Source: Rhodothermales bacterium (GTDB lineage Bacteria > Bacteroidota > Rhodothermia > Rhodothermales > Bin80). Taken from it: a stretch of 64,000 nucleotides of DNA. A program made the position numbers and the translations under genes. The notes under the pieces were generated by a model. It was given only the letters and a program-made list of their open reading frames with translations, was not told the origin of the DNA and did no database searches. The stretch lies in the NCBI GenBank assembly GCA_958296045.1, contig CATQHT010000002.1, positions 1 to 64,000 of the forward strand. The letters run 5' to 3'. Positions 3,235-23,819 of the stretch are shown piece after piece (the stretch's first letter is position 1; each line of letters starts with the position of its first letter).

Positions 3235-4701
3235 ATGAGGCATCTCGCCAAGAGGTTGTTTTCAGGCCAGGGGCTGCTGGGTCCGGTCGTCACCCTCATG
3301 TCTGGCAACTCGGTCGTGCTGGCCATCGCATTCCTGTCGCAACCGATCCTGACGCGCCTGTACTCTGAAGCGGAGTTCGGCGTTTACGGCTACTTCGCGT
3401 TTCTGATGGCCATCCTGATCACGTTTTCCTCGCTCCGTTACGAGGATGCGCTGATGCTGCAGGACAAAGACCGCGAGGCTGGCGTGGTGGCGTGGCTCGG
3501 ACTGATGGTGCTGGCCTTTTTCGTCTGCCTTACGGCCATCCTGTCCATATGGCGCATGGAACTGGCCGAGCTGGCCAAGGCTCCTAGAGTGGCGCCCTAC
3601 CTGCTTCTGGTGCCGATAGCACTACTGGCTATGCGCGGCACAAAACTGGCTGAGCTCTGGCTGGCTCGTAAGCGTTCCTTTCGCGTCATCAGCGCTAGTC
3701 AGGTGGCCAACGCCAGCACCATGAATGCCTCACGCATCACAGCAGGCCTGCCTCAGATTGATGCTGGCGCCGCAGGCCTGGTGGGAGGCCACGTGGCAGG
3801 CAACGTGTTGTCGCTGGTGATTCTAACTACGATCATACTTCGCAGAAGCGGCCGCCTTTTGCGCCAGGCCTTCTCGTGGCGCGCCGTGCGGGCCGCTGCC
3901 GTACGTTACCGGCGTTTTCCGCTCTTTTCTACGCCTTCGACATTGACCGCGGCACTGGTGCTGCGCGCCCCGATCTTTGCGATCCCATTCTTCTTTCCGA
4001 CGGACGGGGAGGTCATCATGGGCCTGTTCTTTGTTGCATACAACAACGTGACTATCCCGCTGGGATCCTTTTCGCGCGCGGTGGCCCAGGTATTCTTTGT
4101 GAGCGCCGCCGAGGCACATCGCGAACAGCGCCTGGCAGTCATTGCCGAGGGCGTCCACCGGCGCCTCGTGATGGTGATGCTGTTTCCAGCGCTGGTCATC
4201 CTGGTGTGCGGACCGGACATCTTCGCAGTGGTGTTCGGCGAGCCGTGGCGCGATGCGGGCAGCTATGCGCAAATCCTGGTGCCCTGGCTACTTATGAGCA
4301 TGATTTGCGCGCCCCTTACGCGTATCTTTGATGTAACTGAGCAGCAGCGGCAGGACCTCGCTGTAGGACTGGTATCGATGGCTGTCATGGTGGCTGCGCT
4401 CTTTATTGGAGGGCGCTCTGGCGATATTACGGTATTTCTTGTGTGTCTGTGCTCGGGTGGTTGCCTAGCGCGCATATTTCAGCTTGGCGTCTTAGCATCA
4501 CTGGCAAAAGTTCGCATCAGTCGCCTTCTGATGCCCTACGTGAGATATCTTGCTTTTTCAGTCCCGGGCCTCGCGCTGATGACAGGCGTGCTACAGCTCG
4601 GCAAGCCGGTGCTGACGCTGGTAGGTAGCATCCTGGCGACAGGCATCTATGGCGCGCTGCTGCTGCGCAAAGAGAAGCTGTTCGGTACTACCTCCGCATA
4701 G
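3235..4701 (+). CDS. Wzx-like oligosaccharide flippase
   Basis: A 488-residue membrane protein with about 12 hydrophobic segments and the N-terminal pattern of MOP-superfamily polysaccharide exporters: 'SGNSVVLAIAFLSQPILTRL' near residues 23-42, followed by 'Y..AEFGVYGYF', equivalent to the common 'iltRlysPeefGlfglf' start. Known members flip undecaprenyl-linked repeat units across the inner membrane. The gene closes a three-gene unit with the FemAB-like transferase and the polytopic protein, which supports a role in capsule, exopolysaccharide or O-antigen export. No polymerase or glycosyltransferase cluster is visible here, so the locus may be a fragment of a larger one upstream of the window. 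Confidence 0.8.
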   Translation: MRHLAKRLFSGQGLLGPVVTLMSGNSVVLAIAFLSQPILTRLYSEAEFGVYGYFAFLMAILITFSSLRYEDALMLQDKDREAGVVAWLGLMVLAFFVCLTAILSIWRMELAELAKAPRVAPYLLLVPIALLAMRGTKLAELWLARKRSFRVISASQVANASTMNASRITAGLPQIDAGAAGLVGGHVAGNVLSLVILTTIILRRSGRLLRQAFSWRAVRAAAVRYRRFPLFSTPSTLTAALVLRAPIFAIPFFFPTDGEVIMGLFFVAYNNVTIPLGSFSRAVAQVFFVSAAEAHREQRLAVIAEGVHRRLVMVMLFPALVILVCGPDIFAVVFGEPWRDAGSYAQILVPWLLMSMICAPLTRIFDVTEQQRQDLAVGLVSMAVMVAALFIGGRSGDITVFLVCLCSGGCLARIFQLGVLASLAKVRISRLLMPYVRYLAFSVPGLALMTGVLQLGKPVLTLVGSILATGIYGALLLRKEKLFGTTSA

Positions 4702-10362: not shown

Positions 10363-11139
10363 ATGCTGAAGAAGACGCAGCTATATGATAGACATCTGTC
10401 TTTGGGGGCTCACATGAGCGCTTTTGCTGGCTTTGACATGCCGGTTCGGTATCAGGGCATTCGCGCAGAGCATATGGCGGTACGCGAAGCCGCGGGACTG
10501 TTCGACGTGAGCCATATGGGCCAGATTTTCGTAATGGGCGACGAAGCAGGCGCGCTTGTCCAGCATTTGGTCACCAACGACGTGTCGAAGCTAAAGGACG
10601 GCCAGGCATTGTACACCCTGATGTGCAACCATGATGGCGGCATCCTGGACGACCTTCTCGTGTACCGACTCCGCGATTACGCCTACATGCTGGTGGTCAA
10701 CGCAGCTAACACGAAGGAGGACCTCGCCTGGATGCAAGCCAACAATGAAAGAGAGGCGATGCTGCACGACACCTCCGAGCACATCGCACTCCTTGCGCTG
10801 CAGGGCCCCAGGTCGTTGGACATCATGGCACGGCTGACGGATATTCCCGTGCATGACATCCCGCCATACCACTTCGTGCGCCCGGCTCCTGGCGCCTTTT
10901 TCGGCTGCGAGAAGGCGATCGTGGCGCGCACCGGCTATACAGGAGAGATCGGCTTGGAAATCTACGTGGAGCGGGAGGCTGCCGGTCGTCTATGGGACGC
11001 CATCATGCAGGTGCGCACGCCTCTGGGTTTGCTCCCGGCAGGGCTTGGTGCGCGGGACACGCTGCGCCTGGAGGCCGGATACGAATTTATGCCTATCTCT
11101 TGCGTCATTCATAGCGCCAGGACGCAGTTCTGCTCCTAG
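10363..11139 (+). pseudogene. gcvT: Truncated aminomethyltransferase (glycine cleavage T protein)
   Basis: The first about 242 residues are a good GcvT: start LKKTQLYDRHLSLGAHM, substrate-loop GLFDVSHMGQ, and the conserved GLGARDTLRLEAG near 231-243. Right after that motif the sequence changes to IS1380 debris, giving a 15-residue foreign tail and a stop at 11139. Normal GcvT is about 360-370 residues, so the whole C-terminal barrel and part of the folate domain are missing. The remainder was not found in this window. T protein transfers a methylene group from H-protein-bound aminomethyl to tetrahydrofolate; the truncated product is unlikely to work, so glycine cleavage must rely on another copy or be lost. 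Confidence 0.85.
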
Positions 11140-11748
11140 CACATCCCCCGTGGGCCCGCATGTGGCCACCATAGGCAAATATATCCTGTGCCTATAGTGA
11201 GCATTATATTCGCTGCCTTCCTGCTTCCCGTACACTTCTACGGGATAGCTATCCACGTCGATGACCAGCTCCGGCACGCGCTTGCCTCCGTTGCGGGTGT
11301 ATATCGTCTCCATTCCCAGCCGGGTGACCGTATCGGCCAGATGCTGGAGGTTGGGCTCTTCGCTGAGCCGGTCAATAGTGCGTGACAGCGTCGGCTGCGA
11401 AGCTAAGCGGTGTTCGCGCTCTAGCACCTTCGCACCACGCTGATCACGGCTGGCCACGCGGAAGGCGGGGTCGTTCTTTAAGTCTTCCGCTGAGCGCAGA
11501 CGATCCCATCCCTGCATGAACGACAGCAGCACCTGCTGCAGCAGCTCACGCAGCGAGTGCCGGACACGGCTCTGGTCGCGGGAGTCCGCCAAGCCCTTCA
11601 TCAGCATCGCAATCAAGCCCGTCAAGTCCAGCAGGCGACGACCAATAAGGGCGCCCGCATCGGACGTCACCTGATCGGGCTTATCAAAACTCACCTTAAC
11701 CGAGCGGTTGTGCGACGCGAACGTTTTCAACGTGTTGGATGCGGACAT
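11090..11748 (-). pseudogene. IS1380-family transposase, N-terminal half
   Basis: On the minus strand an open frame from the ATG at 11748 encodes about 220 residues closely resembling the N-terminal half of IS1380-type DDE transposases: 'VTSDAGALIGRRLLDLTGL', 'SRVRHSLRELLQQVLLSFMQ', 'NDPAFRVASRDQR', and the catalytic-core block VIDVDSYPVEVYGKQEGSEY with the first aspartate pair. Family members are about 430-460 residues, so this copy stops at mid-protein where the sequence joins the truncated gcvT near 11090. It cannot encode an active transposase. Its loss together with the 3' part of gcvT suggests one deletion that removed both. Confidence 0.8.
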
Positions 11749-12929
11749 GTGGCTCACTGGATCATGGATGGTACGTGTAGCGGTACTTCTGGCACCGTGA
11801 CGCGCTCGTGCTGGTGTGCGCAAGCCCGCCCAGCGGTAAGGGGACCCCCTGCCTCATGGCTGCTGTACCGTCCTACACGCTGCAACAATGAGGCAGTCCA
11901 CAGGCATCCATTGTTTTTGTCAAAGTCAAGTATGAGAGTCAAATCGTGCGTAATGCCGCTTCGCGTGCCATGGTCCGCAGCCCTTTGGCCATCGCTGCCA
12001 GGGTCCATAACCCTGGCCCAGCGCTCCCGGCCCGGCGCAGACAGCCCATGACCATCCTGCACCAGTGCCGTGCATGCGACCGATGCAGGCCGCACACGCA
12101 ATGCCGAATCGGCCATGACAATGTCCGCCGTCTAGCAGACCGATCCGCCTGCCTTTTGGTGCCCCTCTCAAGCTCGCCCAGGCGCAGAAATCCCCGGCTC
12201 TGCCCGGGAAGTGGGCACCTGCTAGGACTGGCGAAGAGGGCCCTAAATAGGCCACGGAACGTTCACCCAGCGGGTGAATCCGTACTATCCCGCCAACTGC
12301 CTCAAAACGCATATAAACAATGTATATACAATGGTCTCAATGCCATCAAACGGGCGCGTAGAAACGCACCAAACCCTTGTTCAGAGGCCATCCGTTGTAG
12401 ATCTATAGGCAAAAGCCCCTGTTTTCATGGATATGGGACCATATAAACCCCTTCTTAACTGAAAAGCGGCGCACTCAGGATAACGTGCATTGTAACAAAG
12501 TATCCATGCAATACTTTGCTGCTGTTTTATGCAAATCTCAGACGTGAATTATGCGGGATGAACCATTCTCTGCTACCGGCCATCCGTACGTAATACTGCA
12601 CCTAGGATCCGCCCTTACGTACGCGGGCATACCTGCGTGACTATTCCGCATACATGCCAAAAACGCATGTCAACCCCAGTCCGCATGGCCGCTCGATTAT
12701 TGACCAGGTGCGCCCTCAATAGAAGATCACCCGCACCCGCACCCAGATTCCCGAAGAACATCGGCGAATAGCGATACCTGTCAGAGCTACCAGTCATGGC
12801 TGCTCTGCTGAGTTGAGTATTCCTCAACCTGCCCGAAGCCGAGGTTACCGCATAGCCATAGAGGACCGCACCCAAACATAAGCAGGGCAAATCTCCCGGC
12901 TTAAATGCCCTTTACGGGACAGTTACGTT
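11749..12929. other. Degraded intergenic/IS debris, no supported gene
   Basis: About 1.2 kb between two IS1380 fragments. The longer open frames on both strands give arginine/proline/cysteine-rich translations without motifs and I do not support any. The left end should contain the upstream end of the IS1380 copy at 11748. No tRNA, CRISPR or clear regulatory element was seen. Confidence 0.45.
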
Positions 12930-13206: not shown

Positions 13207-13255
13207 AGAGGCAACCGCCCGGCTTCCTGAGCACGTTAACGGGCGGTGAGCCATT

Positions 13256-13268
13256 ATTAGTGGAAACG
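13256..13268 (+). repeat. Left terminal inverted repeat core of the IS256 element
   Basis: The bases attagtggaaacg are the exact reverse complement of 15678-15690. Similarity continues outward (ggtgagcca here, ggtgggcca in the partner read inward) and inward for four bases (cggc against tggc), giving roughly 25-28 bases with a few mismatches, a normal length for IS256 terminal repeats. Confidence 0.7.
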
Positions 13269-13326
13269 CGGCACGCTCAGGGGGGGACAATGCACCTGAG
13301 CTCCCTAACCACAACGCACTTTATCG

Positions 13327-14406
13327 ATGCCATTAGAAGGACGAAATGCTGTAATACCTGCCGTATCAGGTGATGCTCTGACGAGCGTCGACGGCTGGCG
13401 GTTGTATCTCTTGAAGCAATGCAACCTGATCATTGAGCTTCTGGGTCGCGAGTGGCCCGATCCTCCATTGCAATCTCTGGTGGCCGCTGACGAGGCGGGT
13501 TCAGAGACGCAGGGAAACACAGATGGTAAGTCGGCTGTACCGTTATGCTCGACGTGTGGTAGTGATTCCGAGCATCAAGAGAAAACTGAAGATCCGCTCT
13601 TATCGCATTATCGGCTGGAAGCAGACCGTGCGGATCGTGCTTATGGGGAGTTTTGCACACGCTCGTTTACTGACGAGAACTTCGTGGCTCTCTGGATGAG
13701 TGCCGCATACGTCCAGGCGGTGCAATACACCTTCGTTGTGGGCGTCACGGAAGCCGGGTACAAGCGGATATTGAGCCTGGCAGCCTGCTCGTTGCAGCAT
13801 ACGGAGGCATTAAAGGGAATGCTGGAGCAGCTTGCGCGCCGCGGGTTGCGCATGAACGAAAGCCTGTTGTACGTAATACCGGGCGCTGTGGGACTCAGGC
13901 GGGCGTTGGTGGCCCACTCGGGTGACCGCATCGTTGTGCAGCGCTGCCTTGCTGAGAAGCGTGCGCGGGTACTGAGCTATCTGCCGCAGGAGTATCGTCT
14001 GAAGGTGGGCCGTGCGCTGCATCATGCATGGGGCGCGCTGGAATATGGTGATGCTCTTGGGGCCCTGAAGCGGCTGCAACAACGGGTGCACCGCATCAAT
14101 GAGTCGGCTGGCCGCGCGTTGGCCAAGGGGCTGGAAGAGACGCTCACCGTGCACCGTGCCGGGGCCTATGTGGCATTGGGGCGCAGCTTAACGACGACGC
14201 GCGTGATTACGCGTCTGGCGCAGCGACTCTGTGGGCGCCTGCGCCAACGCTCAGACTGGATGCCATCGGATCAGCGCAGTACCTTTATGGCCCTTGACCT
14301 GATGGCCATGGAAGCAGGGATGTACCGCTTGGGCCACGCCGCGTATCTTCCGGCGCTGCGTGAGCAGCTTACCGGCTTAAATCAACCCCACTCTACGAGA
14401 ACATGA
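13327..14406 (+). CDS. Catalytically dead IS256 transposase paralogue
   Basis: A 359-residue protein whose last about 260 residues align colinearly, without gaps visible by eye, to the transposase encoded next door. The catalytic triad is lost: where the neighbour has FIDGKYF, VVDGAKG and NCIENLN, this protein has WMSAAYV, VIPGAVG and RVITRLA, so D-D-E became S-P-T. The zinc/histidine segment QRCCWHK is QRCLAEK. Structural positions such as LLYV, GLEETLTVHR and LGRSLTTT are kept and the frame is open. The N-terminal 100 residues differ from the normal DNA-binding domain. Overlap with the transposase (ATGA) implies coupled translation. It could be a regulatory or targeting subunit, or a young pseudogene. 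Confidence 0.65.
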   Translation: MPLEGRNAVIPAVSGDALTSVDGWRLYLLKQCNLIIELLGREWPDPPLQSLVAADEAGSETQGNTDGKSAVPLCSTCGSDSEHQEKTEDPLLSHYRLEADRADRAYGEFCTRSFTDENFVALWMSAAYVQAVQYTFVVGVTEAGYKRILSLAACSLQHTEALKGMLEQLARRGLRMNESLLYVIPGAVGLRRALVAHSGDRIVVQRCLAEKRARVLSYLPQEYRLKVGRALHHAWGALEYGDALGALKRLQQRVHRINESAGRALAKGLEETLTVHRAGAYVALGRSLTTTRVITRLAQRLCGRLRQRSDWMPSDQRSTFMALDLMAMEAGMYRLGHAAYLPALREQLTGLNQPHSTRT

Positions 14407-15689
14407 GCGCATTTACGATCACAATCACGGCTGACGGGCGAATAACAGGGCTCCAGGAAGCCTTTTCGAAGATGAGCTTGGCTGACCTCATCGCTCGCGT
14501 GGTCAACTGGCCGAGTCTGCATCTGAAAATGATCATAGCCGTCATGGCTGCGGAGGTCGAGGCGCTTTGCGGCAAACGCTACAGCAGGAAGGGTGCCAGC
14601 CAGAGGCCTTGCTACCGGCATGGCACCAACCCCGGTACGGTCCGCATTAGTGGGCGCCGTGTGCCGATCAGGGTGCCTCGGGTACGCGACGTGAAGGTAA
14701 AGTGCGAGCGTGTCCTGCGCAGCTATCGCGCGTTTCACGAGGCGAGAATCAATGAAGATGCGCTCATGCGCACCTTGTTCTTCGGCGTCAGTCAACGCAA
14801 CTACGAGGCCATCGCGGACGAGTACACCGATGCGTTCGGGCTGAGCCAATCATCGGTAGGTCGCATCTTCCGGCGCAGCGCTGCGAAGGTACTGAAGGAA
14901 TTCTATGAACGCCCGCTGAACGACTACGATCTGGTAGGTCTGTTCATCGATGGCAAGTACTTTCGCAAGCACCAGGTGCTCATCGCCATGGGGCTGACCT
15001 CTGAAGGTAAGAAGGTCGTTCTTGGGTGCGTCGAAGTGGGGTCCGAGAGCCAAGAGGCCACCAAGGGGCTCTTAGAAGACCTGTTCGACCGGGGTCTGCA
15101 AATACATCAGGGCCTGCTCTGCGTCGTCGACGGCGCCAAAGGGCTCCACGCCGCTATCAAAGAGGTCTTCGGCGGCTTCGTGCAGGTGCAGCGCTGCTGT
15201 TGGCACAAGCGGGAAAACGTCGTGGCCCACATGAGCAAAGAAGATAAGCTCGTATATCGGGCGCGCCTGCAGAAAGCCTATCAAATTCCAGACTACAGAG
15301 ACGCGAAGGCGGAACTCCTATCGATCAAGGACGACCTGGAAGCCTCCAACCAACTCAAGGCCATGAAGAGTCTGGAGGAAGGCATGGAGGAAACGCTCAC
15401 GATCCAAAGGCTCGGAATAGCCAAAGAGCTCGGCCAAAGCCTGCGTACCACCAACTGTATTGAGAATCTCAATAGTACCCTCGGCAGATTGACGCGCAAT
15501 GTTTGCAGTTGGAAAAACTCGGCACAGGTCCACCGCTGGATGACGCTGGCGCTCATGTATGCAGAACCCAAACTGAAAACCATCCCCAATCACCAACACC
15601 TGCTCAAGCTCCGAGAGGCACTTATAAAGGCCAAGACCCGACTGCCAAACCCCAAAATCCCCTTCTCCCCCCAGCCACGTTTCCACTAA
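14403..15689 (+). CDS. IS256-family (mutator type) transposase
   Basis: A 428-residue transposase of normal length. The N-terminal zinc-ribbon-like/helix region includes 'CYRHGTNPGTVRISGRRVPI', and the catalytic DDE residues are visible in FIDGKYF (D), VVDGAKGL (D) and NCIENLNS (E). The insertion-domain signature QRCCWHKRENV and the GMEETLTIQRLG helix are present. No frameshift or internal stop is seen, so it may be active. Translation is probably coupled to the upstream dead paralogue. The stop codon lies within the right terminal inverted repeat. A diverged remnant of a related element is at 56200-56443. Confidence 0.95.
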   Translation: MSAFTITITADGRITGLQEAFSKMSLADLIARVVNWPSLHLKMIIAVMAAEVEALCGKRYSRKGASQRPCYRHGTNPGTVRISGRRVPIRVPRVRDVKVKCERVLRSYRAFHEARINEDALMRTLFFGVSQRNYEAIADEYTDAFGLSQSSVGRIFRRSAAKVLKEFYERPLNDYDLVGLFIDGKYFRKHQVLIAMGLTSEGKKVVLGCVEVGSESQEATKGLLEDLFDRGLQIHQGLLCVVDGAKGLHAAIKEVFGGFVQVQRCCWHKRENVVAHMSKEDKLVYRARLQKAYQIPDYRDAKAELLSIKDDLEASNQLKAMKSLEEGMEETLTIQRLGIAKELGQSLRTTNCIENLNSTLGRLTRNVCSWKNSAQVHRWMTLALMYAEPKLKTIPNHQHLLKLREALIKAKTRLPNPKIPFSPQPRFH

Positions 15690-15690
15690 T
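15678..15690 (-). repeat. Right terminal inverted repeat core of the IS256 element
   Basis: Exact reverse complement of 13256-13268, overlapping the last codons of the transposase. The following bases (tttggcccac) correspond to the outer part of the left repeat, and the same end can be recognised in the decayed copy near 56458-56477. Confidence 0.7.
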
Positions 15691-15872
15691 TTTGGCCCAC
15701 CCCCGTGGGAAAACATGCATCTAAATTTAGAATCGCTGTGGGCTCCCGGGTCGACTTGCCCTTTTCACCCTAGTGTCCTTACCTTTGGTGCGCAAACTAG
15801 GGTGCAACGTTATGGTAAGCTCTAAAGCAATGCTATATCCGATCCAGGGCGCAGCCCGGCGTCTGGAAAATT

Positions 15873-15950: not shown

Positions 15951-18900
15951 GTGGGTCTGGCAGCGATAGCCTGTCTATCGGCGGCGCACGTTGGCACGGC
16001 ACAGGACATCGAAACCGTTGTATTCCCAGCTCTGAAGGCCATCTACAAAGCCACTAACGGCGGCAACTGGACGAATACCAAGCTTAACCGAAAGCCGTGG
16101 GATACGACCAGCGTACCGACTGCAACGGATTTGGATAATTGGAGTGGGGTTCTGTACCTGAATGGCAATCTCATATTGCTGAATCTTGCCGACAACGAGC
16201 TTTCTGGTTACATCCCGAATGAGTTGGGAAACCTGACAGAATTGTCGTGGTTGAGACTGAAGGGCAATGCTCTTACTGATACGATCCCGAGGACGTTGGG
16301 AAACCTGACAAAGTTGTCGACCTTGACCCTAAGAGACAACCAGCTTATGGGGAAATTGCCCTCGACCCTAGTAGCTCTGAGCAGCCTCTCAGAATTCAAT
16401 TTTGACAACAATAATGGTCTTTGTGCGCCCACCGACGATGCCTTTCAGATGTGGCTCGACGATAATTTTTATAACCCCGGTCCCGATTGTCAAGCGCTTG
16501 AGTTACCAGATATCAAAGATAGGAGGTATGAAACAGGTCTAATCGTTTCAGGGGACAGGCTTCCGGCTCCGAAGTACGGTATTACGCCCTACGCTTCAAT
16601 TACGCTGATGCCGGATCTGCCGTCAGGACTGACAATTAGTTCCGACAGTATCATTAGCGGCACGCCAACGGCGGTGTATCCTCAGACGGAGTTTACGTAT
16701 ACAGTTACGGATGCGGCAATGGAGACCCTGTCAAAGACATTTCATATTGAGGTAGTGGAAGGGCTGGCACTGCCGTCGGTGGATCCGTTGGAGTTGGAGT
16801 ATAACATAGCGTACTCCAAAGTTTTACCAGTGGCTACGGGGGGTACTCCTCCCCATACGTATGCAATCGTTCCCGGAGACCAAGCTCCCACGCTGGCTTC
16901 GCTGGGGCTGACTTTCGCCAGTGGTACGCGCACGTTGAGTGGCACGCCGTCCCGTGCCACTCCAGCCTATTCCTATCAGTATCGGGCTCAGGATGCGGAG
17001 GGTGTGTTTGTAGAGGCAGCATTCACTCTGACCGTGCTTCTTGGTCTCGCTTCCATAGATAATCAGAACTATTCCGCAGGCGAGGCGATTGCCGACCTGA
17101 CACTCCCAGAGGCCATGGGCGGCACGGATCCGCACACGCATGCGTTGACGCCTGCTTTGCCTGCGGGCCTGACGTTTGATGCCACGACGCGCGTGCTTAG
17201 CGGCACACCGACTGCGGGTCAAGCGGCGACCGAATACACCTACACGGCGACGGACGGTGCCACTCCCGCGCTGACTCGTTCACGGATGTTCACTATTGAG
17301 GTGGCACTGGGCTTGGCGGAGATAGCAAATCAGGAGTATGAGTATGACGAAGCAATACCGGACTTGGTGTTACCCGAGGTGGTGGGTGCAACGGGGACGG
17401 TCACCTATACGCTGACGCCGGCGGAGCCGCCAGGACTGACGTTTGATGCGTCCACGCATACGCTGAGCGGTACACCGACGGCGGCTACTGGTGCGACCAC
17501 CTACACGTACACGGCAATGGACGACGGCGGGCAGACTAGTTCGCGGACGTTCACCATTGAGGTGTTGTTGGCGTTGGCTGCTATTGGTGATGAGGTGTTT
17601 AATGCGGGCGTTTCCATCTCGCCTGTAGAACTTCCCGAGGCTCTGGGCGGCACGGCGCCCTATACGTATACGCTGACGCCGGCGGTGCCTGCGGGCCTGG
17701 AGTTTGATGACAACACGCGGATCTTAAGCGGCACGCCGACCGCGGGCTTCGCGCTGACCACATACACCTACACGGCGACGGACGCTGCTACTCCCCCGCT
17801 GACTCGCGCGCGTACGTTCACCATGGAGGTGGCACTGGGCTTGGCGGCGATAGCAGATCAGAGGTATGAGTATGACGAAGCAATACCGGACCTGGTGTTA
17901 CCCGAGGTGGTGGGTGCGACGGGGACGGTTGCGTATTCGCTGACGCCAGCGGTGCCAGATGGCCTGACGTTTGATTCTGGCACGCGTACGCTGAGCGGTA
18001 CACCGACGGCGGCTACCGCTTCGACCACCTACACGTACACGGCAGAGGACGATGGTGGGCTGGATGTTTCGCGGACGTTCACCATTGAGGTGTTGTTGGC
18101 GTTGGCTGCTATTGGTGATGAGGTGTATGCGACGAACGTTCCCATCCCGCCTGTGGAGCTTCCCGAGGCTCTGGGCGGCACGGCCCCCGTTGCGTATGTG
18201 TTGGAGCCTGGTCTGCCTGCGGGCCTGGAGTTTGATGGTAACACGCGGATCTTGAGCGGCACGCCGACCGCGGGTTTAGCGCCGACCGGTTACACGTACA
18301 GGGCGACGGATGCTGCTGGGCTGACCCGCACGCGTACGTTCACTATGGAGGTGACACTGAGTCTGGCGGAGATACCAGATCAGACGTATGAATATGGCGA
18401 AGCGATACCGGACCTAGTATTACCCGAGGTAGCGGGTGCCCCCGGGGCGTTCGCCTATATGCTGACCCCTGCTCCGCCGTCAGGACTGCAGTTTGATGCG
18501 TCCACGCGTACGCTGAGCGGTACACCGACGGCGGCTACCGTTTCGACCACCTACACGTACACGGCCACGGAAGCTGCTGGCGGGCCGACCGGTTCACAGA
18601 CCTTTGCTATGGAGGTGTTGTTGGCGTTGGACGATGATGATATTGGTGAGGAGGTGGTATTTACGACGAACGATCTCATCTCGCCATTGGAGTTTCCAGA
18701 GGCTCTGGGTGGCACGGCGCCCTACACGTATGCGTTGACCCCTGAACTGCCTGCGGGCTTGGTGTTTGATGCTACGACGCGTGTGCTTAGCGGCACGCCG
18801 ACCGCGGTCACAGCCCCGGCCCTGTACACTTATGAAGCCACGGATGGTGTTGGGCTGACCCGTTCACGAGTGTTCACCATCGAGGTTGTTACGGCGGGGT

Positions 18901-21900
18901 TGTTTTTGCGGGAAGTGCCAGACCAGAAGTATGTGTTCGGGGAAGTGGTCTCCTTTCTTCTTCCTGAGGCACGCGGCGGCGTCCCGCCGCACCGCTACGC
19001 GCTGACGCCGGATGATCTGCCAGAGGGACTGGTGTTTGACGAGAACACGCGTGAGCTCCGTGGTACGCCGACCGAAGTCGTTGCGCGACAGGAGTACACG
19101 TACACGGTAACAGATAGCGTGCAGGCGACCGAATCGGAAGGGTTTGGCATCGAGGTGACGTTGGCTTGGGCGGAGGTGCCAGATCGGACCTATACCTTTG
19201 ACGAGCCTATCGTGCCCTTGGAGCTTACCGAGCCTCTTGGCGGCACGGCTCCTTACGAGTATACCGTTTCTCCAGCGCCGCCGCCGGGTTTGGCGTTTGA
19301 TGAGCAAGCAGGGTCACTCACGGGCACGCCATCGGTGGGTGTGCCGCTAACGGAGTACAGGTGGGGAGCGAGGGACGCTGCCGGCTTCGTGGTGGAGCGG
19401 TCCTCGTTTATGGAGGTGCGGTTGGCGTTAGCCGCGCTCCAGGATTATTCGTTCGTGTTAGGAGAGGAGATTGTTCCGCTGGTGTTCCCTTTGGCGCACG
19501 GTGGCATGGAGCCGGTCACGTACACGCTGACGCCGCCGCTTCCTGAGGGTTTGGACTTTGATGAGTTTGCGCGCGTGCTCTTCGGCACGCCGACCGAAGC
19601 TATGGGAGAGACCGAGTACACGTACCGGGCCGAGGATGCGGTGGGCGCTTTTGGTGAGCAGACCTTTTCTATGGAGGTGCTATCACTGGTTTTACCTTTC
19701 GTTGCGGACACGGTCTTTGTGGTGGGCGAGGCGGTCGACTGGGTGTTGCCCCCGGCTGTGGGCGGTACGCCTCCCTTAGTTTATACGTTGGATGGGGCGC
19801 TTCCTGAGGGCTTGGAGTTTGAAGACTCTACGCAGAGGCTCCATGGCGTGCCGACGGCGGTGGCAGACGTGCAGGACTATGTGTATCAGGTTGTGGACGG
19901 GGAGGGTTTGACGGCGCAGGCGCCCTTCACCATAGCGGTGGTGTTAGCAGCGGAGCTGCGGCTGCCCCCGGTAGCGGCGCAGCACTATGTGGTAGGGAGG
20001 GAGACGTCCGAGGTGCTGCCTGCTGCCGCGGGCGGTACGGGTCCGTATGACTATACGCTTGTGCCGGATCCGCCAGCAGGACTGGGCTTTGATGCGCGCA
20101 CGCTCAGTGGTACGCCGGTGTTGGCGATGCCACGCGCGGAGTATCGGTACGGGGTGGAGGATGCCGAAGGCGATACGACATCGCAGGCGTTCGTTATGGA
20201 GATCCATGGCGCGTTCACCTTGCCGTCTGTGTCAGACCAGGACTTTGCGGTAGGGGTGGCGCGCTCGGTGGTGTTGCCGCCGGCGTCGGGCGGCTTGGGT
20301 TTGCCCACGTATATGCTGACGCCGGCGTTGCCTTCGGGGCTCACCTTTGATGCGTCCTCGCGTGTGCTGAGCGGCACGCCGACCGCCGTCGCGGCTCCTG
20401 TGACGTACACGTATGCGGCGACGGATACGACCGGAACCCCTGTCGAGCAGGAGTTTATGCTGGCGGTCTACGACGCGCTGACGTTGCCCGAGGTAGCGGA
20501 TCAGCGTTATGTGTACGGGGAGCAGATTGCGTGGGCTTTGCCACCGGCTGTGGGAGGTACCGCGCCGTACGCGTATAGCTTAATGCCGGATCTGCCGGAG
20601 GGACTGACCTTTGATGCCGCCACGCGCGTGCTGAGCGGCACGCCGTCCGAGGCTACGGGCGCGGTGCCCTACACCTACCAGGCGACGGATGCAGACGGTG
20701 AGGCGGCCTCGGACACCTTCTATATTGAGGTGGCCTTGGCGTTGGCATCCATTGATGATCAGAAGTATCGGGTGGGAGAGGCTGCGAGCGTGGTGCTTCC
20801 CGCAGCGCTGGGTGGCGCGGATCCGACGTATATGCTGACGCCGGCGTTGCCTTTGGGGCTGACCTTTGATGCGGCCACGCGTACGTTGGGTGGCACGCCT
20901 ATGGAAGCCACCGCGCCTGTGGAGTACGCGTACGTGGCGACGGATGCGGCCGGTCTGGCGGCTTCGGACACGTTCCTTATTGAGGTCGCGTTGGCGTTGG
21001 CCTCGGTGGCGGATCAGGAGTATGAGGTCGACGTTGTGGCTTCGGATGTGCTTCCCGCAGCGCGGGGCGGCACGGATCCGTACACGTACGTGCTGACGCC
21101 CTCGCTGCCTTTGGGGCTCACGTTTGATGCGTCTACGCGTGTGCTGGGTGGCACGCCGACCGAGGCTACCGCGCCTGTGGAGTACACGTATGTGGCGACG
21201 GATGCGAACGGCTTGGTGGCTTCGGACACGTTCCTTCTCGAGGTGCAGCTGGCGTTGGCTTCCATCGCGGATCAGGCGTATGCGGTGGGAGAGGATACGA
21301 GCCTGGTGCTTCCTGCAGCGCGTGGTGGCACGGATCCGTACAGGTATGAGCTGACGCCGGCGCTGCCTGCGGGTCTGGCGTTTGACCGTACCACGCGTGT
21401 GCTCAGCGGCACGCCTACCGTAGCCGCCGCGCCCAAGGAGTATACGTACGCGGCGACGGATGCGGCCGGCTTGGCGGCTTTGGACACGTTCCTTATCGAG
21501 GTGTATTCGGCGCTGATGCTGCCGGGGGTGGAGGATCAGGTGTTCGGGGTAGGCCAGCAGGTCACTTGGGTGTTACCTGCGGCCGCGGGGGGTCAGCGTC
21601 CGCACGGGTATCGGCTGGATCCGGCTCCTCCAGACGGGCTGGCCTTTGAGGCCTCTACGCGCACGTTGAGCGGGGTGCCGACGGCGGTGATGGCTGCCAC
21701 CGGCTATACGTATACGGTGGAGGACGCCAGCAGTCGGCAGGCTTCCCAACCGTTTAGCATAGAGGTGTTGGGCTCGCTCCTGTTGCCTGCGGTGGAGGAT
21801 CGGGTCTTTACGGTGGACGAAGATATCGTGCCGTGGGAGCTTCCGCCAGCTACCGGTGGCAGGAGTCCGTACGAGTATGTGTTGCATCCCGACCCGCCTG

Positions 21901-23819
21901 CGGGGTTGGTGTATGACGAGGCGTCGCGTACCCTCAGCGGCCGCCCCTTGACGATACTGTTGCCACAGCCTTATACGTATACGGTGACGGATGCGTTGGG
22001 CATGGAGACCGCGCGGACGTTTGATATCACGGTGGGGGCGCCGGCTGCTTTGCTTGCCGACCGTGCGGCGCTGATGGCGTTGCATGAGGACACCGGTGGC
22101 GAGCGCTGGACGGACCGCAGCGGCTGGCTGGATCCGCCTGCCGACGTGGTAGCGTTCACCGCGGAGGCGCTGGAGGCATGGTTTGGGGTTTCGGTGGACT
22201 CCGGCCGCGTGGTGGCGTTAACGCTGCCGCACAACAATGTGGAAGGCACGTTGCCGGAGGCGTTGGGGGATCTGACGGCGCTGGAGCAGCTGCACCTCTA
22301 CGGCAATAGGTTGCAGGGCCGCATCCCTGCGGCGCTGGGGCGGCTGGACAGCCTGCGCGGGCTGTTGCTGCACGACAACGCGTTGGCGGGCACGATCCCG
22401 TCTTCGCTGGGACGGCTGGCGGCCCTGGAGCAGCTGCACTTGCACAACAACGAGCTGACGGGCTCTATCCCAGACTCTTTGGGTCGGCTGGTCCATCTGC
22501 GGGAGCTGTGGCTGTATGGCAATGCGCTGGGGGGTTCGCTGCCCACCACGTTGGGGCAGCTAGACAGCTTGCGTGGGTTGCTGCTGCATGGCAACGCGCT
22601 GGTGGGCACGATACCGCCTGCGCTGGGGGATCTCGTGCGGCTGGAGGATCTGTGGTTACAGGACAACCGTCTGGAGGGCTCGATACCGCCCACGTTGGGG
22701 CAGCTGGACCGTCTGCGTACGTTGCTGTTGCATGGCAACGCGCTCACGGGTACGATACCGCCTACGTTGGGAGATCTGGTGCGGCTGGAGGATCTGTGGT
22801 TACAGCACAACGGTCTGGAGGGCTCGATCCCGAGCGCGTTGGGGCAGCTGGACCGCTTGCGTGGGTTGCTGCTGCATGGCAACGCGCTGGTGGGCACGAT
22901 ACCGCCTGCGTTGGGGGATCTGTCCGCGCTGCGTTGGCTGCAGTTGCAGCAGAACGCGCTAGAGGGAGGGGTACCGTCCGCGCTGGGGCAGCTGGCACAT
23001 CTGGAGCGGTTGCAGCTCGAGGGCAACAGGCTGACGGGCGCGTTGCCCGACTCTTTGGGCGAGCTGGCGGCGCTGACGCATCTGTATGTGCACGACAACA
23101 TGTTGACAGGCATGTTGCCGCAGGCTTTGCGGCAGCTGACCGCATTGCAGGAGTTGTTCTTTGGTGGTGCGGACCAGGCGCTCTGTGCGCCGGTGGATGC
23201 ACCCTATCGGGCGTGGTTGGCGTCATTGGAGGCGGTGCGGGGTCCGCACTGCGGGGAGCACGGGCTGGTGTTTGTGGCCTCGGTGCCGGATCTAGCGCTC
23301 ACCGCGGGTCAGCGCGTAGCGGATGTGGCGTTGCCGCCTGCCGAGGGGGGCACCGCGCCCTATCGCTACGTGCTGGATCCGGCGTTGCCCACCGGGCTGG
23401 CGTATGAGGCTGACGCACGCGTGCTGCGCGGGGTGCCGGTGGCATCCACAGCGCCGGTGACCTATACGTATACGGCGATGGATGCGACAGGGCGTACCGG
23501 GCAGCTGTCGTTCACGCTGGCGGTAGCGCCACCGATGGCCGAGGGGCTACAGCTCCATGGCAACTATCCCAACCCGTTTAGGGACTACACGCATGTGGAG
23601 ATCAGCCTGGCGCACGATGCCGACGTGCGCCTAGCGGTCTTTGACCTGTTGGGTCGCCGCGTGGTGGATCAGGCGCTGGGGCGCCTGCCAGCGGGCGCGC
23701 ATCGGCGCCTGGCGATACAGGTGCCCGATAGCGTGCCAGGCATCTACCTGTATCGCGTCGTGGCCACGATGCCAGACGAGACCATCGTGCGCACAGGCCA
23801 TTTGACCGTGGTACGCTAA
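15951..23819 (+). CDS. Giant T9SS-secreted adhesin: Ig-like repeats plus LRR arrays
   Basis: A 2622-residue surface protein. In order: short hydrophobic signal (1-18, GTG start, ending GTAQ), small LRR block (about 60-165), 21 tandem Ig-fold repeats of about 88 residues of the He_PIG/cadherin-like type (about 187-2033, each with a 'LSGTPT' turn and a 'YTYTATD' strand), 13 plant-type 24-residue LRRs (about 2086-2403, LxxLxLxxNxLxGxIPxxLG), a 22nd Ig-like repeat (about 2440-2527) and a T9SS type A sorting domain (about 2532-2622, beginning NYPNPF). Export should be by Sec then T9SS, with the tail cleaved. The signal peptide lacks a basic n-region, and a G tract upstream could alter the N-terminus. 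Ten bases separate it from the next gene, so it heads the motor/usher operon. Confidence 0.88.
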   Translation: MGLAAIACLSAAHVGTAQDIETVVFPALKAIYKATNGGNWTNTKLNRKPWDTTSVPTATDLDNWSGVLYLNGNLILLNLADNELSGYIPNELGNLTELSWLRLKGNALTDTIPRTLGNLTKLSTLTLRDNQLMGKLPSTLVALSSLSEFNFDNNNGLCAPTDDAFQMWLDDNFYNPGPDCQALELPDIKDRRYETGLIVSGDRLPAPKYGITPYASITLMPDLPSGLTISSDSIISGTPTAVYPQTEFTYTVTDAAMETLSKTFHIEVVEGLALPSVDPLELEYNIAYSKVLPVATGGTPPHTYAIVPGDQAPTLASLGLTFASGTRTLSGTPSRATPAYSYQYRAQDAEGVFVEAAFTLTVLLGLASIDNQNYSAGEAIADLTLPEAMGGTDPHTHALTPALPAGLTFDATTRVLSGTPTAGQAATEYTYTATDGATPALTRSRMFTIEVALGLAEIANQEYEYDEAIPDLVLPEVVGATGTVTYTLTPAEPPGLTFDASTHTLSGTPTAATGATTYTYTAMDDGGQTSSRTFTIEVLLALAAIGDEVFNAGVSISPVELPEALGGTAPYTYTLTPAVPAGLEFDDNTRILSGTPTAGFALTTYTYTATDAATPPLTRARTFTMEVALGLAAIADQRYEYDEAIPDLVLPEVVGATGTVAYSLTPAVPDGLTFDSGTRTLSGTPTAATASTTYTYTAEDDGGLDVSRTFTIEVLLALAAIGDEVYATNVPIPPVELPEALGGTAPVAYVLEPGLPAGLEFDGNTRILSGTPTAGLAPTGYTYRATDAAGLTRTRTFTMEVTLSLAEIPDQTYEYGEAIPDLVLPEVAGAPGAFAYMLTPAPPSGLQFDASTRTLSGTPTAATVSTTYTYTATEAAGGPTGSQTFAMEVLLALDDDDIGEEVVFTTNDLISPLEFPEALGGTAPYTYALTPELPAGLVFDATTRVLSGTPTAVTAPALYTYEATDGVGLTRSRVFTIEVVTAGLFLREVPDQKYVFGEVVSFLLPEARGGVPPHRYALTPDDLPEGLVFDENTRELRGTPTEVVARQEYTYTVTDSVQATESEGFGIEVTLAWAEVPDRTYTFDEPIVPLELTEPLGGTAPYEYTVSPAPPPGLAFDEQAGSLTGTPSVGVPLTEYRWGARDAAGFVVERSSFMEVRLALAALQDYSFVLGEEIVPLVFPLAHGGMEPVTYTLTPPLPEGLDFDEFARVLFGTPTEAMGETEYTYRAEDAVGAFGEQTFSMEVLSLVLPFVADTVFVVGEAVDWVLPPAVGGTPPLVYTLDGALPEGLEFEDSTQRLHGVPTAVADVQDYVYQVVDGEGLTAQAPFTIAVVLAAELRLPPVAAQHYVVGRETSEVLPAAAGGTGPYDYTLVPDPPAGLGFDARTLSGTPVLAMPRAEYRYGVEDAEGDTTSQAFVMEIHGAFTLPSVSDQDFAVGVARSVVLPPASGGLGLPTYMLTPALPSGLTFDASSRVLSGTPTAVAAPVTYTYAATDTTGTPVEQEFMLAVYDALTLPEVADQRYVYGEQIAWALPPAVGGTAPYAYSLMPDLPEGLTFDAATRVLSGTPSEATGAVPYTYQATDADGEAASDTFYIEVALALASIDDQKYRVGEAASVVLPAALGGADPTYMLTPALPLGLTFDAATRTLGGTPMEATAPVEYAYVATDAAGLAASDTFLIEVALALASVADQEYEVDVVASDVLPAARGGTDPYTYVLTPSLPLGLTFDASTRVLGGTPTEATAPVEYTYVATDANGLVASDTFLLEVQLALASIADQAYAVGEDTSLVLPAARGGTDPYRYELTPALPAGLAFDRTTRVLSGTPTVAAAPKEYTYAATDAAGLAALDTFLIEVYSALMLPGVEDQVFGVGQQVTWVLPAAAGGQRPHGYRLDPAPPDGLAFEASTRTLSGVPTAVMAATGYTYTVEDASSRQASQPFSIEVLGSLLLPAVEDRVFTVDEDIVPWELPPATGGRSPYEYVLHPDPPAGLVYDEASRTLSGRPLTILLPQPYTYTVTDALGMETARTFDITVGAPAALLADRAALMALHEDTGGERWTDRSGWLDPPADVVAFTAEALEAWFGVSVDSGRVVALTLPHNNVEGTLPEALGDLTALEQLHLYGNRLQGRIPAALGRLDSLRGLLLHDNALAGTIPSSLGRLAALEQLHLHNNELTGSIPDSLGRLVHLRELWLYGNALGGSLPTTLGQLDSLRGLLLHGNALVGTIPPALGDLVRLEDLWLQDNRLEGSIPPTLGQLDRLRTLLLHGNALTGTIPPTLGDLVRLEDLWLQHNGLEGSIPSALGQLDRLRGLLLHGNALVGTIPPALGDLSALRWLQLQQNALEGGVPSALGQLAHLERLQLEGNRLTGALPDSLGELAALTHLYVHDNMLTGMLPQALRQLTALQELFFGGADQALCAPVDAPYRAWLASLEAVRGPHCGEHGLVFVASVPDLALTAGQRVADVALPPAEGGTAPYRYVLDPALPTGLAYEADARVLRGVPVASTAPVTYTYTAMDATGRTGQLSFTLAVAPPMAEGLQLHGNYPNPFRDYTHVEISLAHDADVRLAVFDLLGRRVVDQALGRLPAGAHRRLAIQVPDSVPGIYLYRVVATMPDETIVRTGHLTVVR
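17304..18875 (+). repeat. Tandem about 528-bp two-domain duplications in the adhesin
   Basis: Near-identical DNA recurs with a period of two Ig-like domains: copies begin near 17304, 17832 (period 528) and 18354 (period 522). For example gaagcaataccgg occurs in the first two copies at the same offset, and 'ggtgttgttggcgttgg' recurs in the alternate domain. DNA-level identity this high inside a diverged array points to recent dimer expansion and to a site prone to recombination. Confidence 0.75.
22557..22988 (+). repeat. 144-bp LRR pair repeats
   Basis: Three successive units of 144 bases (48 residues, two LRRs) start near 22557, 22701 and 22845. The segments coding LLLHGNAL(V/T)GTIPP and VRLEDLWLQ are almost identical in DNA. 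The pattern indicates expansion in steps of two LRRs and could change copy number by recombination. Confidence 0.75.

Follow-up and report, generated by a model that had tools for sequence, protein, structure and literature searches.

A small insertion sequence of the IS256 type, found in a member of the Rhodothermales, carries two genes, an intact transposase and a related protein that has lost catalytic residues, and the pair has been kept, copied and diversified together across related marine bacteria. This suggests that the element needs, or is controlled by, its non-cutting partner. That the element is a conserved unit with a dead partner is close to certain, whereas the mechanism proposed below remains tentative. 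IS256-family elements are treated as single-transposase elements, and no two-gene IS256 element with a dead paralogue was found in the open-access literature that could be searched, ISfinder not being included. A long-lived lineage with an apparently always paired dead paralogue suggests that an insertion sequence can evolve a specialised non-catalytic subunit. It also warns annotation pipelines, which would call the first gene a broken transposase.

The two genes and the ends of the element

The element occupies positions 13242-15704 (plus strand, 2463 bp) of the window, i.e. the 64,000-nucleotide stretch analysed (contig CATQHT010000002.1 of assembly GCA_958296045.1, positions 1 to 64,000 of the forward strand). 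Gene 1 (13327-14406, plus strand) encodes a 359-aa protein and gene 2 (14403-15689, plus strand) a 428-aa protein, the two overlapping as ATGA (14403-14406). Gene 2 is an ordinary IS256 transposase, with 140.7 bits for PF00872 (Transposase_mut) and 228.6 bits for NF033543, above its curated cut-off of 150. Gene 1 matches the same models more weakly (39 and 88 bits, respectively) and only from its residue ~100 on. The two proteins align over 249 residues at 34% identity (E 1e-34). On a 23-row alignment, the catalytic residues D183, D243, and E354 and the histidine H268 of gene 2 correspond to S125, P185, T295, and E210 in gene 1 (gene 1 numbering counted from the invariant columns), whereas the cysteine of the CxxH motif is kept. 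In gene 2, D183, D243, and H268 are invariant and E354 is nearly so. The preliminary description, which had noted the loss of all four residues in this copy, was thus confirmed, but in other lineages of the dead protein the first aspartate and the CxxH histidine are still present. What all 11 aligned dead proteins lack is the second aspartate (replaced by Pro, once by Ser) and the glutamate. As this loss is common to all, whereas the first aspartate and the histidine survive in one subfamily, inactivation most simply preceded the radiation.

The preliminary description also placed perfect 13-base terminal repeats around both genes. This perfect run, ATTAGTGGAAACG, is in fact the core of a longer imperfect inverted repeat (31 nt, 84%), whose left copy is GGCGGTGAGCCATTATTAGTGGAAACGCGGC (13242-13272, plus strand) and whose right copy is GGGGGTGGGCCAAAATTAGTGGAAACGTGGC (15674-15704, read on the minus strand). 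In the same 4.78-Mb genome, eight near-full copies of the whole element exist (92-100% identity), plus many fragments. Five of them, L001 (the window's own copy) and L002 to L005, are complete with both frames open; L007 lacks the left 187 bp, L006 has a broken gene 1, and L008 has both genes broken. Copies L004 and L005 are bounded by perfect 9-bp target duplications (CATGGGCAC and TGGGTTCAG, respectively) that flank both genes and fix the ends at 13242 and 15704. L002 has a 7-bp and L003 a 7-of-8 match, but the window's own copy, L006, and L008 have none. A stop at 13939 is shared by L006 and L008, but these copies do not group, so that it looks independent. A promoter scan gave results no better than shuffled sequences.

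Recurrence, selection, and co-inheritance

The pair is not restricted to this type (type I). A second type in the same genome, about 32% identical and composed of a 343-aa dead protein and a 433-aa transposase, is found in four near-identical copies, one with an 8-bp duplication (L054) and one interrupted by an insertion. Further pairs, always with the dead gene first, lie in other genomes of the same family (Rhodothermales), referred to here as G015 (contigs C30, C83, C150, C100, and C151), G013, and G011. Inverted repeats enclosing both genes were found for all of these but C151, and 8-9-bp duplications for C150 and for C100, whose pair is split by an insertion (the G015 pairs L059 and L061). 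Public records matching these pairs are a Rhodothermales MAG and a Rhodothermaceae MAG, bin80, whose name appears in a paper on the microbiome of the sponge Aplysina aerophoba (PMC5649159). The 4-base overlap of the two genes is found again in type II (locus L053, 2735-2738) and in one bin80 copy (locus L131, 3916-3919). This overlap could suggest that gene 1 is the first half of a single protein made by programmed frameshifting into gene 2. However, other pair types have gaps of about 10-60 bp between the frames and gene 2 is a complete transposase on its own, which makes this explanation very unlikely.

Among 114 genomes of the order and 395 genomes drawn from the phylum, dead-type matches that reach the N-terminus occur only in the window's family; outside it, only catalytically intact or fragmentary relatives, without a dead gene in the flanks examined, were seen. 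As an alignment of all dead proteins was too diverse for scanning larger collections, subfamily alignments were used. A collection of genome contigs gave only Rhodothermales MAGs, although this negative is weak since it rests on two short patterns. Viral contigs gave nothing, and plasmids only ordinary IS256 transposases at < 35% identity, with no DNA match.

In a 44-protein tree, all 15 dead proteins form one clade (100/100 support). Their transposases fall together (80/90) with a few fragmentary relatives and branch like the dead clade at the well-supported nodes: C83, C150b, and C100 group with G011, then with type II, G013 groups with C30 and C151, and type I stands apart. Distances between dead proteins and between their transposases are strongly correlated (Mantel r = 0.98, 0 of 20000 permutations), and remain so with one pair per lineage (r = 0.90, 1 of 720 permutations, the identity itself). 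The dead gene evolves under purifying selection, with omega values of 0.12-0.42 between lineages (Fisher p down to 2e-40 for a dead-dead comparison), comparable with those of the transposase (0.15-0.38). Between the more diverged copies in this genome omega is 0.29-0.45 (Fisher p below 0.02), whereas among the youngest copies it is about 0.5-0.67 and not significant, as expected for copies drifting after insertion. In 16 genomes of the family, every intact transposase gene of the partner clade that was found is paired, although rare solo copies may have been missed since assemblies are partly fragmented. The high-scoring exception, at C3:2265013, is the far half of the interrupted type II copy.

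Taken together, these data refute the ordinary decay of a tandem insertion, which the preliminary description had set as the alternative to its non-catalytic partner. Gene 1 does lack catalytic residues and several copies carry stops or frameshifts, but the broken copies are mostly older or fragmentary, intact frames of single origin recur in several lineages with omega well below 1, and the terminal repeats enclose both genes with no repeat between them. A third dead-partner type in the window's genome (328 aa, open, related to type II; G000:C3:2341873-2342796, or 3562-4548 on the minus strand of locus L132) has no intact transposase next to it in the stretch examined. On contig C150 of G015 (L059), two dead partners of different subfamilies lie side by side, a complete subfamily-A pair being convergent with a subfamily-B dead gene whose transposase was not found intact.

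Predicted anatomy and possible roles of the dead partner

AlphaFold models (mean pLDDT 80 and 85) and Foldseek searches, whose best hits are the ISCth4 transposase chains (6xg8/6xgw/6xgx; E 8e-9 for gene 1 and 6e-15 for gene 2), give the predicted layout of both proteins. The transposase has N-terminal helices up to residue 56, a beta hairpin (70-96), and helices (106-145), followed by the catalytic and insertion domains. By contrast, the dead partner has a single N-terminal helix (residues 21-40; 13387-13446, plus strand) at the place of the IS256 dimerisation helix, then a predicted disordered linker (residues 41-86, pLDDT < 50; 13447-13584, plus strand) in place of the end-binding NDB and HTH domains, and an RNase H-like domain with an all-alpha insertion domain and a dead active site (residues 90-351, pLDDT mostly > 90; 13594-14379, plus strand). 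The helix is conserved across lineages (0.36 mean pairwise identity), as are the catalytic, insertion, and C-terminal parts (0.35-0.40), whereas the linker is not (0.21). It resembles the N-terminus of solo IS256 transposases only weakly (-2.0 to 7.5 bits in three of them, with a conditional E of 9e-5 within one comparison), so that calling it the dimerisation helix rests mainly on its position. The dead proteins have also lost the basic charge of their transposases, with a pI of 5.7-8.9 against 9.2-10.1.

In the ISCth4 transpososome, dimerisation occurs mainly through the first two helices, one protomer (A) grips the end through its NDB and HTH domains, and the other (B) cuts in trans with its own NDB disordered (PMC7780238). 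A subunit without NDB and HTH cannot take seat A and, without D and E, cannot cut in seat B. A transposase-partner heterodimer, inferred here from predicted anatomy and not from a measured interaction, should thus hold an end without cutting it. Made upstream of the transposase gene, and in some types overlapping it, the partner would set the share of cutting to non-cutting dimers and so throttle and order the one-ended cleavage of copy-out transposition. This explanation is the preferred one, but it is only about as likely as not. The smaller ISCth4 dimer interface is formed by the HTH domains, which the partner lacks. In addition, a pure inhibitor would need only the helix, yet the whole scaffold is as conserved as the helix, and elements that lost an inhibitor should occasionally spread alone, of which none was seen in these partly fragmented assemblies. 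A more intriguing but unlikely possibility is that the dead subunit hard-wires the asymmetry of copy-out transposition: the donor end would be held by a transposase homodimer and cut, and the recipient end by a heterodimer that cannot be cut, so that a division of labour achieved in ISCth4 by conformational asymmetry would here be encoded in two genes.

Conservation of the whole scaffold and strict retention of the pair leave an obligate structural role possible, and nearly as likely as the throttle. The dead protein would then be needed for transposition, e.g. to bridge the two ends or to hold flanking or target DNA through its insertion domain, which touches flanking DNA in ISCth4 (PMC7780238), and gene 1 would not primarily be an inhibitor. 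The absence of intact solo transposases among those found in the clade and an omega similar to that of the transposase are in line with this view. However, a near-neutral pI and the loss of the known DNA-binding domains argue against a DNA-gripping role, and single-gene IS256 elements, including those of the same order, manage without such a partner. It is unlikely that the dead protein acts outside the transpososome, e.g. by binding a host factor, choosing targets, or excluding rival IS256 elements. Its sequence has diverged far from transposases (a stem of 0.97 changes per column), but tight co-divergence with the transposase and the retained transposase fold point to the partner rather than the host. 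The preliminary description had proposed a non-catalytic partner, perhaps for regulation or target choice; the former is well supported, and the domain anatomy favours a heterodimer partner without end-binding ability.

The element shares with IS256 and ISCth4 the transposase family, the DDE residues and insertion domain, terminal repeats of about 25-30 bp, and an 8-9-bp target duplication. Known members, however, appear to encode a single transposase, as does ISCth4 (PMC7780238), whereas a second, dead paralogous gene is here a fixed part of the element. The inhibitor Inh of Tn5 (IS50), a protein abolished by the M56A mutation (PMC3347997), is probably likewise a non-functional relative of the transposase made by the element itself and lacking the end-binding N-terminus, but it comes from the same gene by internal initiation and not from a separate, long-diverged gene with a mutated active site. 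OrfA of the IS3 family and the KP repressor of the P element can probably pair with the transposase and regulate it, but these keep the DNA-binding part and lack the catalytic domain, the reverse of what is described here. In two-component elements such as IS21 (IstA/IstB), both genes are also enclosed by the ends, but the second gene is an AAA+ ATPase and not a transposase paralogue.

Upstream of the element, overlapping ORFs (10990-12312, minus strand) look by eye like a frameshifted transposase remnant, and the region seems to be an IS cluster. About 250 bp downstream of the element starts a 2622-aa ORF (15951-23819, plus strand) of repeated putative Ig-like and leucine-rich-repeat units with a C-terminal sorting-like tail, which the insertion just misses. 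Elsewhere in the same genome, a 3.3-kb repeated unit bounded by ~40-bp inverted repeats (L018:1961-5249 and L017:311-3598, 98.8% identical between the two copies compared) carries a 770-aa transposase-like ORF, by eye IS4/Tn5-like, and an open frame of ~176 aa that is the C-terminal part of this element's transposase (96% DNA identity). With at least nine copies of the IS256 piece, this is a captured IS256 fragment spreading in another mobile element.
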